64,000 bases of DNA from NCBI RefSeq assembly GCF_000993805.1, contig NZ_CP009961.1, positions 458,001 through 522,000 on the forward strand. Direction: 5' to 3'. Under the pieces are notes generated by a model. That model saw nothing but the letters and a program-made list of their open reading frames with translations, did no database searches and was not told the origin of the DNA. The stretch's first letter is position 1. Every line of letters begins with the position of its first letter. A program made the position numbers and the translations under genes. Shown here piece after piece: positions 3,363-30,196 of this stretch. The stretch is from Thermofilum uzonense (GTDB lineage Archaea; Thermoproteota; Thermoprotei; Thermofilales; Thermofilaceae).

Positions 3363-4052
3363 ATGTCTCGATCCATCGACATAAAAATGCTTACTCTGCT
3401 TGTAGCCGTCCTAGCTCTTGCAGCCTCCAACCTAGCCCTGCTTTTTCTGTTAGACAAGTGCTCACAACATTCACACGTCACCCCATCCTCCCCCGTCTCG
3501 GGGCCTTCACCCCAGTCGACGCCCCCAGCTACCTGTCAGCCCAACACGAGTAACCCCCAGCAACCCTCCCAGGTCTCCAACGCATCCACAAGCCTAGAGA
3601 TCCCAAGTAGTCCACAAGGCCCGGCTTGGAACACGACGCCTACCTATACATACTATCCTGTGCCCTACTATCTTGAAATCGAGGCTGTAGGCGGCCCCTA
3701 TCCTGGAGCGCCTCCGCCCGAGATCCCTTCAGATCTCAAGGTTGAAGTTGTTTATCTCGAAGGTATAAGGTCGTCGAACATATGCCCGGTAACCATGAAG
3801 ACAAAGTTAGATGAAGGTGCTGCTTATCTTAACGTCACGCTCCCCCTTCCAGGTGGTAAATGCTTCAAGGTTACACCCCTCCTCGTGAACAGGACTAAGA
3901 CATCGGTTTACTACCGTTTGGCTTTGCAGGAGGATCCCGGCGGGGCATGTGGTTACTGCGTAGCCTTCACGTTGAAGGTTTCATTCCTGCCGCCAGGTCG
4001 ATACACGGTGACTGTAGGCCCTGAGCTTAAATTTGAAGGGGGCCAGGGCTGA
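3363..4052 (+). CDS. Secreted or membrane-anchored Pro/Ser-rich protein
   Basis: Unrecognised 229-residue surface protein. The first 30 residues contain a strong hydrophobic helix (MLTLLVAVLALAASNLALLFLL) followed directly by a cysteine. Residues of about 40-95 form a Pro/Ser/Thr/Gln linker. The C-terminal half (about 100-229) has beta-strand character with several cysteines, including a CGYC pair, and a final strand like YTVTVGPELKF. The layout is a tether, a spacer and a beta-sandwich. No enzyme motif is seen. Longer frames extend upstream to 3240 but the promoter at 3330 favours this start. Confidence 0.6.
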   Translation: MSRSIDIKMLTLLVAVLALAASNLALLFLLDKCSQHSHVTPSSPVSGPSPQSTPPATCQPNTSNPQQPSQVSNASTSLEIPSSPQGPAWNTTPTYTYYPVPYYLEIEAVGGPYPGAPPPEIPSDLKVEVVYLEGIRSSNICPVTMKTKLDEGAAYLNVTLPLPGGKCFKVTPLLVNRTKTSVYYRLALQEDPGGACGYCVAFTLKVSFLPPGRYTVTVGPELKFEGGQG

Positions 4053-4076
4053 AAACGTATGGGTAGGTTTATCTAG

Positions 4077-4100
4077 AACTGGTTCTATATAGAACCAGTT
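4077..4100. promoter_or_regulatory. Perfect 24-bp palindrome, likely operator
   Basis: The half-site AACTGGTTCTAT is followed immediately by its exact reverse complement, giving a gapless 24-bp inverted repeat that ends one base before the ATG at 4102. A TTTATC box at 4068-4073 is about 30 bp from the ATG, so the palindrome spans the expected transcription start. Its position directly before a winged-helix regulator gene suggests autoregulation. Binding is an inference. Confidence 0.7.
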
Positions 4101-4101
4101 T

Positions 4102-4497
4102 ATGTCGGAGGAGGAGTTCGAAGTACTCTTCGAGATATTAAGGTCCCCTCATATAAGCGTTAACAAACTCTACCAGAGGATGAAGGGGCGTATCTCAAAG
4201 GCTAGACTCATCAAGATTCTCAGAAACCTGAACAAGGAAGGATTCCTGAAGGTGGAGCGGGACCCCCGTCATAAACAGAAGTTACACCTCAGGGTAAGCG
4301 AGGATGTTGAAAGGCTTGCTGGATCGCTAATGGGGGCTCTTTCCACTTTAAGGGACACAAGCGTAGCTAATCAGATCGAGAGTCTTCTAAACACATATCA
4401 TGAACTGGCATCCAGGGTTACTAGACCAGAGCTTAGGGACTTTCTGAGGAGTTTGATCAAGCGACAAGTCGACAGTCTAATCACGAATATCCTGTAG
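4102..4497 (+). CDS. Winged-helix DNA-binding regulator
   Basis: A 131-residue protein whose first 75 residues fit a winged helix-turn-helix: helix FEVLFEILRSP, turn ISVNKLYQRM, recognition helix ISKARLIKILRNLNKEGFL, and a wing strand KVERDPRHKQKLHLRVS. The remainder is helical and probably dimerises (LAGSLMGALSTLRD onward). The class is MarR/ArsR-like, not resolved further. It is the first gene of a probable three-gene operon with the UbiA and GT4 genes. The perfect palindrome touching its start codon is the obvious candidate binding site. The ligand is unknown. Confidence 0.72.
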   Translation: MSEEEFEVLFEILRSPHISVNKLYQRMKGRISKARLIKILRNLNKEGFLKVERDPRHKQKLHLRVSEDVERLAGSLMGALSTLRDTSVANQIESLLNTYHELASRVTRPELRDFLRSLIKRQVDSLITNIL

Positions 4498-4506
4498 GTG
4501 TCATGT

Positions 4507-5307
4507 ATGAGTCTTGCTAGATGTGTAATAGCAGCTATACGTCCTCGGGGATGGAGGGCTTACCTATGGATGTGGCTGCTGGGAGTCCTGCATGGGAGGG
4601 TGGATGCCCAGGCCTTGCTCCTAGGCTTCTACATGGTTGCCTCATTTCTAGCAACGGCCTTTGCGGTCAACAACTTTTATGATGTTCAAGGCGACTCGCT
4701 TAACAACTCTAAGGGTAATCCCTTTACACGAGGCTGTGGGAGCGGAGCCGTCAAGGTAGTTATACTGAACCAGTTTATAGCCGCACTGGTCGCTCTAGCC
4801 TACCCGAGAGTTTTCCCGATATACCTGGTCATGGTTATCCTGGGAGTTCTTTATAGTGCTCCTCCGATAAGGCTCAAGGGAAAAGCCGGCCTGGACGTGC
4901 TGTCTCACTCGTTATATTTTGGCCTCTTACTCTTCTTAACTGGCATCTTTATTAGTGGAGCTACTATAACCCATAACGTATTGGTTGCTGGGACCACTAC
5001 TTCTCTCTACTCTGCCTTCCTGCAACTGCGCAACCTTGAAAAGGATAAAGAATACGATGGACTGGCAGGGGACAATACCCTCTCCGTTAGGTATCCAAGT
5101 CTATCCAAGTTTCTCCTCTACCTGACAGGAGTTGCCTCAAGCCTCGGAGCTCTTCTGGCTTTTATGCATGATGCGACCCTTACGCTGGTCCTTTTAGCGG
5201 CTTCAACGTTACTCGGTACTCTTCTTAGTTGGGAAAGAGGAATAGACCTCTTAGTCGTAACGGGTCTCAGTCTACCTGTCCTGGTGTCCATATGCGCGTG
5301 CTACTAG
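4507..5307 (+). CDS. UbiA-family prenyltransferase
   Basis: Integral membrane enzyme that transfers an isoprenoid chain to an aromatic, glycerol-phosphate or other acceptor. The first Asp-rich motif is NNFYDVQGDSLNN (N-x3-D-x3-D form) and the second is LRNLEKDKEYDGLAGD; both bind the Mg-diphosphate of the donor. Seven to nine hydrophobic helices fill 266 residues, normal for UbiA. I prefer the ATG at 4507, with GGTG six bases upstream, over the GTG at 4498. It follows the regulator gene by about 9 bp and overlaps the glycosyltransferase by 16 bp. Archaeal members include the digeranylgeranylglyceryl-phosphate and quinone synthases; the acceptor here is not determined. Confidence 0.82.
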   Translation: MSLARCVIAAIRPRGWRAYLWMWLLGVLHGRVDAQALLLGFYMVASFLATAFAVNNFYDVQGDSLNNSKGNPFTRGCGSGAVKVVILNQFIAALVALAYPRVFPIYLVMVILGVLYSAPPIRLKGKAGLDVLSHSLYFGLLLFLTGIFISGATITHNVLVAGTTTSLYSAFLQLRNLEKDKEYDGLAGDNTLSVRYPSLSKFLLYLTGVASSLGALLAFMHDATLTLVLLAASTLLGTLLSWERGIDLLVVTGLSLPVLVSICACY

Positions 5308-6398
5308 TTTCCCCCTGGTGTCCTAACAAGCCCGGCGGTGTAGCCTCTCAAGTCAAGATTCTCTACAGCTGGCTCCAGACTAAAGGCTATGATGCACGCG
5401 TGGTTTGCGGAGAACCAGGTGCACTAAACCCCCGAACCTTTAATGGAAGAGCACGTTTAGTCTTTGATCACGTCGTAGCTATAAGGAACCCCGTCCTTTT
5501 AAGGGAAGCCTTAAAAGAGCTGAGACCTGATATAGTGCACGTCCACCACGTCTTTACGCCCTTCTCGGCTCTAGCCTTTGCGCTCTGCAGGAAGTACAAC
5601 ATACCCTGTATAGCAACAAACCACTCTCTACCACCAATGGGTGACTTTAACCTCTGGGCCGCGGCGTCTTATCTGACTCCTCACAGGTGGATTATAAGGC
5701 CCACAAGGGCCACAGCTGTAAGCAAGACAGCAGCACACTTCCTGGAGAAATTCTTCGGATGGAGGAACGTAAGCGTTATACCTAACGGCGTTGACACGCA
5801 AAGGTATGCGCCAAGAAGCATGGGGGATTTCAGGGGAGACTACGTTATCTACATAGGGAGACTTGTATGGAGGAAGGGCGTTCAAAACCTGATTAGGGCT
5901 GCAAGGCTTCTACATCGAGAAGAACACACTACACGTATAGTCATCGCAGGGGAGGGTTATATGATGGAATACCTGAAATCACTTGCCTCCGGGTTAAGAA
6001 ATGTGGTCTTCCTTGGAAGAGTGGATGAAGGCTTAAAAATTGAACTACTTAGGGGCGCAAGAGCTCTAGTACTTCCAAGTATCTCTGGCGAGAGCTTCGG
6101 CGTCGTCCTCATAGAGGCTTTCGCTACAGCAACACCGGTTATAGCTACAAGGGTTGGGGGCATCCCAGAGATAGTTGATCATGGCCTCAACGGGGTCCTA
6201 GTCGAGCCTGGAGATCACGCCGGTTTGGCCGACTCAATCTTAAAGCTAACTCAGGAAGACGGTCTTTGGAGGTTCATGTCCTGGAATGCTAGGAGGAAAG
6301 CCCTGGAGAAATACTCGATTGACATCGTGGGAGCCATGTATGAGAAAATGTACATTGAGGCTTTGAACTATCCCAGGGAAAATATTAGGATGGGTTAG
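5292..6398 (+). CDS. GT4 family glycosyltransferase
   Basis: Retaining GT-B glycosyltransferase, 368 residues. The N-terminal Rossmann half begins MRVLLVSPWCPNKPGG. The C-terminal half contains the linker IPNGVDTQRYAP, the strand YIGRLVWRKGVQNLIRAA, and the nucleotide-sugar motif ESFGVVLIEAFATATPVIAT (E-x7-E). The start overlaps the UbiA gene by 16 bp with GGTG upstream. Pairing with a prenyltransferase suggests glycosylation of a lipid or polyprenol carrier (inference). Donor and acceptor cannot be read from sequence. Confidence 0.85.
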   Translation: MRVLLVSPWCPNKPGGVASQVKILYSWLQTKGYDARVVCGEPGALNPRTFNGRARLVFDHVVAIRNPVLLREALKELRPDIVHVHHVFTPFSALAFALCRKYNIPCIATNHSLPPMGDFNLWAAASYLTPHRWIIRPTRATAVSKTAAHFLEKFFGWRNVSVIPNGVDTQRYAPRSMGDFRGDYVIYIGRLVWRKGVQNLIRAARLLHREEHTTRIVIAGEGYMMEYLKSLASGLRNVVFLGRVDEGLKIELLRGARALVLPSISGESFGVVLIEAFATATPVIATRVGGIPEIVDHGLNGVLVEPGDHAGLADSILKLTQEDGLWRFMSWNARRKALEKYSIDIVGAMYEKMYIEALNYPRENIRMG

Positions 6399-6448
6399 GT
6401 GCAGGTCCTTCGGCCCAATTTTTGAAATTCCTATTCATACAAGAATTC

Positions 6449-6457
6449 TTATATAAT
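6449..6457 (+). promoter_or_regulatory. TATA box of the 6483 gene
   Basis: TTATATAAT at about 30 bp from the ATG at 6483 and 21 bp from the alternative ATG at 6474. The spacing favours the downstream start. Confidence 0.45.
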
Positions 6458-6482
6458 AAACTACGGTTAGAACATGATTGTT

Positions 6483-8168
6483 ATGGCTAGCGTTGGCAAG
6501 CGTGTAGTAAGTGGTGTTCTTCTCGCGTTTTTAGGTGTAATCTTATCGATCTACACGCTCCTGTCTTCTACTTGGCTTTCACTACTACCATTACTCTTAC
6601 TCCCCTTCGTGATTGCGATTTACTTCTCAAGGCTAGGCGTAATAAATACAAATATCCTTAAATATGGTTTGGCAGGAGCGGTGATCATAGCTCTATTCTT
6701 TCTCCTCGCCGCCATACCACCCCTCTACATCTCTTGGATTACACTCTTGGTATATCTCTTCTTATTGTCACTCAAACATCCTAAGCTACTAATAGCATAC
6801 CTAGTCTTCCTATTTCTATTCATACCTCTCATGCTTTACTCAAAAGGATACCTGACAGTAACGAGCCATAATCTCGTCAAGATAGGAGATTTAAAGGAGC
6901 TTCAGAGCCATCTGAGCAGGCCTTCATCTCTCGTGGTCGTCGGTCACGCGATGGCAGACATTATAGCTCACACACAGCTCTCCCCAAACGAGAAGATATC
7001 CGAGTGGGAGGAAATAATCGTTAACGGAACCCCCTACTGGGTCTTCGCGGTTACCCCCCAGAACACAATAGCGCAAAACTATGTAAGCAAGATTATCCTA
7101 GTACACGTGCAAACGGGAGAAGTTAAGTCTGTCCCGGTTCACCTGACGGTAGGCAGCGGCCTCTGGTTATTGAACGACATCGTCCTCAGGACATTCCTCG
7201 CGACTGCACAGCCCATCGGGAATACCTACCCGTTCATTCACGACGGGAAAGCATACTTCGCCGCATGCGTGAATAGGCTCGGAGGCTTCGGACTTGTTGA
7301 GCTTCCCGACTCAGTCTACGTGTATAGCGAGGATGGAGGCTTCAAGGTTATACCCCAGTTTAGCGGGGATACGCACCTACCCGAGGACTACGACTGGGAA
7401 TATTTTAACTGGTATATCGAGAAGTGGCTTTACCACCTCGCGGACGAAAACCCTGTGACTTTCTCATTCTTTCCGAGGGGGTTCCTCTGGATACCTGCGA
7501 GCCCTTACAGTCAAGACTTGCTCAACATGACATTATTGATACCGGGAAGCAGGGGAGAAACGGTACGTGTATATTTCGGTGTTAGCCCTCAAAACCCGAA
7601 CAGTATAGTCTCCTTGATCCTGGTAAACAACACAGGTGCTTATTACTACAACGTTAAGAGCATCGGCATCTATAGTCCCTACTACATCCAGTCGCTAGTC
7701 CAGGGCAAGCTCCCAGCGATAAGCGGGGGATATCTCTACGCTAAATACTCCCAGCTCATCTATCTCGACGGCTATTACTGGATCGTACCAATCTACGCGC
7801 AGACAAACATAGTGACCCTATGGGGTATAGCTATAGTCAACGCGACAAACCCACAGTCCATGAAGATCTACCAGTATCATCCAGACTATGGCACCTTCCA
7901 GGATTTCTTGCACACCGTCCTTGCGTTAAGGCTGACAGAGCAACCCTTAAAGCAGCCCTGCAGGCTTGTTACGGGCACAGTAAGCCATGTAGCCCAGTTC
8001 GTATACAAGGGTGACACCTATATAGCGATAGAGGTTCAGGGAAAAACATTCTTCGCGACCCCCGAGATCGGCCTCACACAATTCGTGAAACTGCTGAAGG
8101 TGGGGGAGGGCTCGAAGGTTACGATATGTGTCAGCGATGATAAGATAATAAATTTCCTTGAGCCTTGA
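6483..8168 (+). CDS. Membrane protein with large extracytoplasmic domain
   Basis: Unrecognised 561-residue protein. Residues 1 to about 125 contain four to five hydrophobic helices. The rest is a soluble, aromatic-rich domain with many Tyr/Trp/Gly, repeated PYWVF and YYWIVPIYA-like strands, and phrases such as HDGKAYFAACVNRLGGFGLVEL that resemble beta-propeller or beta-sheet ectodomains. No peptidase or hydrolase motif was found. I chose the ATG at 6483 from promoter spacing; an ATG at 6474 adds three residues. It appears monocistronic. A transport or sensory scaffold is possible, but no function is assigned. Confidence 0.6.
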   Translation: MASVGKRVVSGVLLAFLGVILSIYTLLSSTWLSLLPLLLLPFVIAIYFSRLGVINTNILKYGLAGAVIIALFFLLAAIPPLYISWITLLVYLFLLSLKHPKLLIAYLVFLFLFIPLMLYSKGYLTVTSHNLVKIGDLKELQSHLSRPSSLVVVGHAMADIIAHTQLSPNEKISEWEEIIVNGTPYWVFAVTPQNTIAQNYVSKIILVHVQTGEVKSVPVHLTVGSGLWLLNDIVLRTFLATAQPIGNTYPFIHDGKAYFAACVNRLGGFGLVELPDSVYVYSEDGGFKVIPQFSGDTHLPEDYDWEYFNWYIEKWLYHLADENPVTFSFFPRGFLWIPASPYSQDLLNMTLLIPGSRGETVRVYFGVSPQNPNSIVSLILVNNTGAYYYNVKSIGIYSPYYIQSLVQGKLPAISGGYLYAKYSQLIYLDGYYWIVPIYAQTNIVTLWGIAIVNATNPQSMKIYQYHPDYGTFQDFLHTVLALRLTEQPLKQPCRLVTGTVSHVAQFVYKGDTYIAIEVQGKTFFATPEIGLTQFVKLLKVGEGSKVTICVSDDKIINFLEP

Positions 8169-28256: not shown

Positions 28257-29357
28257 TTACGTCACTTCAAACTTGTAATCCGTTAAAACCTTTACTAGCT
28301 CATCAGTTGATGCATCGAAGATATACAAGGGACCGTCGAACAATAATGCGATATGTCCCTTTCCCTCTATCTTTGCGTCTAAGCCCCTTTGCTCGCTATA
28401 GGAAGTTATCTCTTGATCTTCTAGGAGAGCATGTACTATCACGCCGCCACCTAGTTTTTCTACGCCTAGGAGTGTAGCTTTTATGCCCTCCTCGCTCCCG
28501 ATTTTAACGTCTTGGGGGCGAATACCCAGTATTACATCCTGTGTCTCCTTTTTCTCGCCGAGGCTCGGCGAGAAAATAGATAGCCTGCCCAATTGTATCC
28601 TACCATTTTGCAGCCGAGCCTTAAGAAGGTTCATGGGAGGCGTACCAATGAATCCCGCGACAAACGTGTTGACAGGATTATTGTATAGCCTTCCAGGAGT
28701 ATCTACCTGCACGACTTCACCCTTGTTTATTACGGCTATGCGGTCCGCCATAGTCATGGCTTCGGCCTGATCGTGCGTAACATAGATCGTCGTCGTGTTA
28801 AGCTGGTCGTGTAAGAGTTTTCTAAGCTCGAATCTAAGCCGTACGCGGAGCTTCGCATCAAGGTTGCTTAAGGGCTCGTCTAGGAGGAATACCTTGGGAC
28901 GCCTCACTATAGCCCTAGCCAAGGCCACCCTTTGCTGCTCACCTCCGGACAGCTGGTATGGATACTTTTCCAGGAGGTGTCGTATCCCTAGCATCTCGGC
29001 GGCTTCGAGGACCTTGGTATGTATCTCTTCACGTGGGTATTTCCTCATCTTGAGCGGGAATGCTATGTTGTCGTAGACCTTCATGTGTGGGTAGAGCGCA
29101 TAGTTCTGGAACACGAAAGCAATGTCGCGCTTACTGGGGTCTACCCTGTTCACCACTTTACCGTCTATAATCACTTCCCCCTCGTCAGGCTCCTCAAGGC
29201 CGGCTATTATTCGGAGCAGAGTGGACTTGCCTGAGCCTGAAGGTCCGAGGAATACGAAGAACTCGCCTTTCTGAATCTCGAGGTTTACGTTTTTTACAGC
29301 TATTAGGTCTCCAAACCTCTTCGTTACACCTTTGAAGCTTACGCTCACACGGATCAC
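28257..29357 (-). CDS. Sugar ABC transporter ATPase (MalK type)
   Basis: A 366-residue CUT1-family ATPase. Walker A is GPSGSGKST, signature LSGGEQQR, Walker B VFLLDEPLSNLDAKLR, switch histidine VTHDQAEAM. A C-terminal OB-like regulatory domain (about 235-366) contains the expected ILGIRPQDVKIG motif. It overlaps the MalG-type permease gene by 4 bp. In the cluster it energises uptake of the sugar later split by GH65 or GH130. Archaeal MalK proteins of this type can serve several importers. Confidence 0.9.
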   Translation of the reverse strand: MIRVSVSFKGVTKRFGDLIAVKNVNLEIQKGEFFVFLGPSGSGKSTLLRIIAGLEEPDEGEVIIDGKVVNRVDPSKRDIAFVFQNYALYPHMKVYDNIAFPLKMRKYPREEIHTKVLEAAEMLGIRHLLEKYPYQLSGGEQQRVALARAIVRRPKVFLLDEPLSNLDAKLRVRLRFELRKLLHDQLNTTTIYVTHDQAEAMTMADRIAVINKGEVVQVDTPGRLYNNPVNTFVAGFIGTPPMNLLKARLQNGRIQLGRLSIFSPSLGEKKETQDVILGIRPQDVKIGSEEGIKATLLGVEKLGGGVIVHALLEDQEITSYSEQRGLDAKIEGKGHIALLFDGPLYIFDASTDELVKVLTDYKFEVT

Positions 29358-30196
29358 CCCTTCTTCGCAGACACGACCGTCCCTTTAATCATGTACTTGT
29401 TTAGAAGCACGTACAATATTATTGTTGGAGCCGAAGCTATGAGGCTCCCGGCTATAATTGGCGTGTACTCAGTCCACATGTTACGGCTAAATGCAAAATT
29501 CAGGCCGACAGGCAAAGTGAAGTTTTCAACGCTCCTTAAAAAGACGAGTGGCCCTAGAAAAGCGTTCCAGGAGCCCAGGAACTGGTAGATAGCCAACGCG
29601 CCTAACGCTGGCTTCGAGAGGGGCAAAGCTACATAGAAGAAGGATTTCAAGGGGTCTGCGCCGTCGATTCTTGCAGCTTCAAAGAGCTCCTTTCCAAAGG
29701 AAAGGTAGTATTGCCGCATCAGGTAAATGCCTGATACGCTTGCTGATCCAAGAAGCGCTAAGCCAAGCAGGTTGTCTATAAGCCCGAGCTTCGTGACCAG
29801 TATAAAGTTAGGTATGAGTGTGATGAAAGGTGGAACCATGAGGAGTGTAAGGAGGGCGCTGAAGAGGAGCTCTTTCCTAGGGAACCTTAAAATTGCGAAG
29901 GCATATCCCGCCATAGAAGCCGTGACAGTATTAGCAGCCACTATCAAAGCGCTTACAAATACAGTATTCAAGACCCACCTAGGAAAATAGGAGAGTCTAA
30001 AAAGCTTCAAGTAATTCTCTAGAGTGAATGGGTTTGGAATCCATTGGGGAGGGTATGCAGATGCCTGAGCCCAGGTCATGAAGGACGCGAATATTGATCT
30101 GACAAATGGCATCAGGTAGATAAGGGCTAGGATGCTCATTATTGTATAAGCAAAGAAGACATATAGAAGCGTGTACACGCTTCTACCCTTGTCCAC
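29354..30196 (-). CDS. Sugar ABC transporter permease (MalG type)
   Basis: A 280-residue permease with six helices. The EAA loop is ELFEAARIDGADPLKSFFYVALPLSKPAL, the contact with the ATPase. The N-terminus is short and cytoplasmic, as in MalG. The gene directly abuts malF (no gap) and overlaps malK by 4 bp. Confidence 0.88.
   Translation of the reverse strand: MDKGRSVYTLLYVFFAYTIMSILALIYLMPFVRSIFASFMTWAQASAYPPQWIPNPFTLENYLKLFRLSYFPRWVLNTVFVSALIVAANTVTASMAGYAFAILRFPRKELLFSALLTLLMVPPFITLIPNFILVTKLGLIDNLLGLALLGSASVSGIYLMRQYYLSFGKELFEAARIDGADPLKSFFYVALPLSKPALGALAIYQFLGSWNAFLGPLVFLRSVENFTLPVGLNFAFSRNMWTEYTPIIAGSLIASAPTIILYVLLNKYMIKGTVVSAKKG

Follow-up and report, generated by a model that had tools for sequence, protein, structure and literature searches.

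A probable autoregulatory operator of two boxes precedes a MarR-like winged-helix gene in Thermofilum uzonense

Results

Gene organization and promoter region

The stretch of DNA analysed here, referred to as the window, comprises 64,000 nucleotides (positions 458001 to 522000) of the one-contig, 1.61-Mb genome of Thermofilum uzonense, and positions below are those of the window unless another locus is named. A forward-strand gene at 4102 to 4497 encodes a MarR-like winged-helix regulator of 131 amino acids, assigned from profiles and a structure model and proposed to bind the element described below. It is directly followed on the same strand by the gene of a UbiA-family prenyltransferase (4498 to 5307; PF01040, 42.1 bits against a cut-off of 34.2), whose start is either GTG 4498 or ATG 4507. 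A forward-strand GT4 glycosyltransferase gene (5292 to 6398; PF00534, 124.6 bits) overlaps the end of the UbiA gene and probably starts at ATG 5292. Upstream, the preceding gene, also on the forward strand, ends at 4052; downstream, the next ORF (6474 to 8168) follows after a 75-nt gap containing a TATA-like stretch and probably has its own promoter. The region 6437 to 6483 ahead of this ORF holds, besides the TATA-like stretch, an imperfect palindrome (6437 to 6454), and ATG 6483 may be the likelier start, rather than 6474.

Immediately before the regulator gene, AACTGGTTCTATATAGAACCAGTT at 4077 to 4100 forms a perfect, gapless 24-bp palindrome (12 + 12 nt, 100% complementary), with exactly the sequence and coordinates given in a preliminary description of this DNA; a single T separates its end (4100) from ATG 4102. 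The 24-mer occurs once in the 1.61-Mb genome, allowing up to 3 mismatches, and in 100 shuffles preserving the window's dinucleotides, no perfect palindrome of at least 24 bp without a gap arose. Such an element is improbable by chance, as had been claimed, yet a 22-bp perfect palindrome is also present in the window. Based on symmetry, genome uniqueness, and the shuffle test, the 24-bp palindrome was listed, with no strand assigned, as the proposed operator O1.

The 22-bp palindrome (TAGAAGCGTGTACACGCTTCTA, 30164 to 30185) sits within a reverse-strand ORF (29354 to 30196), 11 bases in from its 5' end, and because this is coding sequence, palindrome length by itself is no proof of function. This ORF is transporter permease-like and belongs to an apparent sugar ABC transporter cluster with an adjoining TrmB-like ORF. 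At 28550 to 28576, two 13-nt arms with 100% complementarity flank a single base; this inverted repeat lies in the coding region of an ABC ATPase-like ORF (28257 to 29357, reverse strand).

The TATA-like element TTTATCTA (4068 to 4075, forward strand) matches a simple TATA consensus in 7 of 8 letters. The TTTATC box of the preliminary description is the start of this element, and the palindrome does lie between it and the ATG. There are 26 nt between TTTATCTA and ATG 4102, the same distance as in a related genome, G020, and judging from this distance the operon is probably leaderless. Two hexamers within the palindrome, box 1 (ACTGGT, 4078 to 4083) and box 2 (ACCAGT, 4094 to 4099), neither assigned to a strand, occupy the whole interval from the TATA box to the start codon. 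A dyad-symmetric site thus follows the TATA box and precedes the gene of the regulator itself, which is the placement looked for in an autoregulatory operator. A transcribed palindrome can also fold, and with the upstream gene ending at 4052 on the same strand, the element might act as RNA, through a transcript hairpin such as a terminator of that gene or a 5' leader structure. We consider this very improbable, since with a TATA box 26 nt before the ATG the transcript probably begins on the ATG or right beside it, leaving most of the element outside the mRNA, and since the relatives described below do not retain the full-length symmetry.

The regulator and its relatives

The regulator scores narrowly below the gathering cut-offs of the Pfam models MarR_2 (PF12802, 24.8 bits; cut-off 27) and MarR (PF01047, 22.5 bits; cut-off 24.6) and far below the curated NCBIfam cut-offs for Lrs14 (NF040939, 22.5 bits; cut-off 90) and Sta1 (NF053606, 22.4 bits; cut-off 80), with the weak profile similarity to the Lrs14 and Sta1 models extending over residues 1 to 59. 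Its AlphaFold2 model is confident (pLDDT 90.6). Both the sequence profile and Foldseek point to MarR proteins as the nearest PDB relatives, chiefly over the winged helix; the whole-chain Foldseek match is loose (TM about 0.48), and VIA-align superimposes the model on 3vod_A with a Z of 11.9 and an rmsd of 2.9 (88 aligned), many rows spanning residues 1 to 67 only. No description of the regulator family or of its motif was found in the literature searched (titles and abstract openings).

The regulator is present in 2 of the 81 genomes of its class, namely, the window's own and G020, which belongs to the same order and a different family; none of the six other genomes of the window's genus has it. 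A two-row profile run over 398 genomes of the phylum revealed further relatives. With an 11-row profile, 11 genomes gave full-length E-values of 5e-47 or better, and the next best was no better than 5e-6. Nine of these 11 genomes belong to another class, among 12 genomes searched there; the 11 full-length relatives (window counted) span four families, and 7 of them represent one genus, g36. The viral contigs searched yielded no regulator relatives. G129 carries the regulator gene a second time (L071, contig C3), in a copy cut by the contig end and with an intact two-box upstream region; this partial copy was left out of the 11 relatives. A regulator-gene remnant with two TAG codons in G007 is probably a chance match, which the 11-row profile did not recover.

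Residues identical in five lineage representatives all fall within the winged helix, except M1, and the C-terminal half of the regulator varies among lineages. The natural reading is that the DNA-reading half has been conserved, and that the targets, and perhaps the signals, have changed.

A conserved two-box footprint

A pair of ACYRGT boxes exactly 16 bp apart is found within 60 nt of the start codon in all 11 full-length relatives, window included, under a uniform scoring in which a pair at 16 bp was counted with at least 11 of 12 letters matching. Spacings of 6 to 15 and 18 to 30 bp occur in none of the 11, and a spacing of 17 bp occurs in 2. When each upstream region was shuffled 2000 times, no more than 0.35% of the shuffles scored as high as the observed pair. 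The pair was absent from two sets of negative controls, 57 long ORFs of the window and 22 weakly related winged-helix genes (remaining after 7 of 29 loci without a usable start codon were left out). Because the sequences used to define the motif were also those in which it was counted, and 7 of the 11 come from one genus, we put the weight on the spacing control, the four-family spread, and the two negative controls.

The boxes vary in sequence and orientation. In G020, TTTATATA is followed by ACCGGT-N10-ACCAGT touching the ATG, and the corresponding pairs are ACCGGT-N10-ACTAGT in G122 and ACAGGT-N10-ACTAGT, with one mismatch in a box, in G101. G108 and G148 have ACTGGT-N10-ACTGGT; G115, G154, and G086 have ACCGGT-N10-ACCGGT; and G129 has ACCGGT-N10-ATCGGT, again with one mismatch in a box. 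The promoter-proximal pair of G094 is 17 bp apart, and a 16-bp pair is formed there using an upstream ACCGAT. In genus g36, a third box, ACCGAT, is located at -46 or -48 in 5 of 7 genomes, and G148 has an extra ACTGGT at -44. In the window and G020, the pair is found next to and downstream of the TATA box; in G108, G148, G115, G154, and G086, it overlaps the end of that box; and in G122 and G101, it lies 17 nt ahead of the ATG, with no clear TATA box. TATA assignments for G094 and G129 were not used, as the upstream pair had been picked there.

A perfect palindrome as the conserved unit was ruled out by this comparison, as the relatives retain the boxes and the spacing; the predicted operator is conserved as two boxes 16 bp apart, not as a palindrome. 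The preliminary description, which proposed self-regulation through the palindrome, had named its lack of conservation upstream of orthologues, together with no binding by the regulator, as grounds for rejection. In the literal sense the first of these is what was found, since the exact palindrome is absent upstream of the relatives; the two-box, 16-bp architecture present in 11/11 nonetheless argues for self-regulation through an operator, and it is only the exact palindrome that must be given up as the conserved feature. A functionless palindrome that arose by chance could be imagined from the 22-bp example in coding sequence of the same window, but conservation of box, spacing, and position in every relative, together with the shuffled windows, makes its probability negligible.

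Genes behind the regulator

What follows the regulator varies from lineage to lineage. UbiA and GT4 are found in the window, GT4 in G020 (47% identical to the window GT4 and directly behind the regulator), and UbiA in G122 (29% identity over 194 columns) and G101, whereas in g36 the regulator is followed by an 85-aa ORF and a B12/radical-SAM-like protein. Because of these differences, the putative operator appears to travel with the regulator. A role of the window's operon in lipid or glycan modification, as suggested earlier, is plausible from its UbiA and GT4 domains, but other lineages have other genes in this position.

In G101, a tetraether lipid synthase gene, Tes (L098, 2207 to 3721; 654 bits, cut-off 450), lies two genes from the regulator-UbiA pair. 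A shared "lipid regulon" based on this synthase was considered and rejected, as an opposite-strand gene separates Tes from the regulator.

Other two-box sites

A search of the genome for further copies, as proposed in the preliminary description, gave 18 copies of AACTGGTTC, mostly single boxes. These copies are too degenerate to be taken as a regulon (loose pairs at 3 mismatches numbered 62, against 20 for a reversed control), and therefore the strict two-box pattern, ACYRGT-N10-ACYRGT, was used instead. It occurs only twice in the whole genome, at O1 and at 4769 to 4790, both in the same operon. The boxes might be bound by another cellular factor rather than by the 4102 product, the neighbouring gene being just one target, and winged-helix proteins are indeed numerous in these genomes. 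A general factor would have more sites than two in one operon, however, and the pair recurs ahead of the regulator family in other lineages, whatever genes come behind, so we regard this alternative as improbable.

The second site (ACCAGT-N10-ACTGGT, no strand assigned) is located within the UbiA gene, 691 bp downstream of the promoter operator, and is the only other strict match of the genome. In the 11 genomes (about 19.3 Mb), 16 strict sites lie outside the regulators' own promoters, compared with 4 for the reversed control pattern, both counted on one strand, and the background rate predicts about 0.002 strict sites in the 2.3-kb operon. Synonymous-codon shuffles of UbiA with the protein fixed, a test made after the site had been seen, form a milder null, in which 104 of 5000 created a two-box site. 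These figures are suggestive of a role of the second site as an auxiliary operator, O2.

The surroundings of 14 of the 16 outside sites (those in G115 C125 and G086 C28 are left out) place 11 within long ORFs or at their ends and 3 upstream of ORFs. The latter are in G108 C47 and in G115 C20 and G086 C40, the last two being seemingly the same place in two species. In G108 (L092, 1519 to 1540), ACTGGT-N10-ACCGGT lies 37 bases ahead of an ABC-transporter permease-like ORF, which may be a second target for the regulator there. In G115 (L091, 1504 to 1525) and G086 (L090, 1479 to 1500), ACCGGT-N10-ACCGGT precedes one ORF type in both species, which we take to resemble peptidyl-tRNA hydrolase.

Discussion

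Our preferred reading, to which we assign a probability of about 0.8, is that the palindrome serves as operator in an autoregulatory circuit in which the 4102 protein would bind the box pair and keep RNA polymerase off the start site. The winged-helix protein would recognize two near-symmetric ACYRGT boxes ahead of its own operon and, once bound, would lower its own synthesis together with that of UbiA and GT4, until a ligand or stress releases the repressor. That the 4102 product is the binder and repression the effect is predicted from sequence comparison; repression is expected because the boxes come after the TATA box and before the start codon and because LrpA provides a precedent. Pyrococcus furiosus LrpA binds within its own control region, downstream of TATA, and excludes RNA polymerase (PMC2995911, excerpt). 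The site proposed here is likewise downstream of TATA in the promoter of the regulator's own gene, but LrpA belongs to the Lrp family, whereas the window protein is a MarR-like winged helix with a mechanism deduced by analogy. Archaeal regulators can also work both ways, and the excerpted text of PMC2995911 describes Ss-LrpB as a concentration-dependent dual autoregulator; the bound regulator might accordingly stimulate or switch the promoter instead of simply repressing it. We consider an activator or dual-function site unlikely, as a protein bound between TATA box and start codon is expected to collide with RNA polymerase.

Other families offer partial parallels to the predicted repressor. 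Lrs14 is negatively autoregulated and blocks an earlier step, TBP/TFB binding (PMC2995911, excerpt). Lrs14 and Sta1 are, like the window protein, small archaeal winged-helix proteins that bind DNA (in the window protein, a predicted property), but the window protein is far under their curated cut-offs, and Lrs14 acts at the TBP/TFB step. MarR repressors such as MTH313 (PDB 3bpv/3bpx) give the best sequence-profile and Foldseek matches, although the window protein is just under the Pfam cut-offs and the good fit is mainly to the winged helix. MarR-family repressors usually have short dyad-symmetric operators before their own genes. In the MarR type, the winged helix comes with a dimerising helical part to which both chain ends contribute. 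MarR has N-terminal helices, whereas the window protein chain starts at the winged helix, without them.

ACYRGT nearly equals its own reverse complement, and therefore an inverted pair, as in the window, and a direct pair, as in g36, can be equivalent. Each box may be read by one dimer, as the near-symmetric modular boxes and the third box of one genus suggest; with a spacing of 16 bp, or about 1.5 turns, box symmetry and spacing would place the two dimers on roughly opposite DNA faces. Semi-palindromic sites able to take two dimers are described for FadRSa of Sulfolobus acidocaldarius, which has only four genomic sites, and for QacR, whose two dimers sit on opposite sides of the helix (PMC6449355, excerpt). 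These are TetR-family proteins unrelated to the window protein, for which two-dimer occupancy is deduced from the box symmetry and spacing only. More speculatively, and with considerable doubt, we may be dealing with a small archaeal regulator family that reads a near-symmetric 6-bp box with one dimer per box at a fixed 1.5-turn spacing, in which inverted pairs (window, G020, G122, and G101) and direct or tripled arrays (g36) are interchangeable and only spacing and promoter position are fixed. The circuit of the window genome would then be closed, with two operators, the promoter site and the UbiA site 691 bp further downstream, and these could work jointly, through looping or as a roadblock.

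Taken as a prediction from sequence, the element represents a well-supported but conventional kind of gene control, in a regulator family previously undescribed in the literature searched. With the predicted operator moving with the regulator across four families while prenyltransferase, glycosyltransferase, and radical-SAM genes swap behind it, the system would be a clean case of repressor rewiring. For an archaeal regulator family that is uncharacterised, it offers a sharp, testable predicted binding site, and the combination of a promoter operator with an intragenic operator would allow repression at a distance to be tested in archaea.
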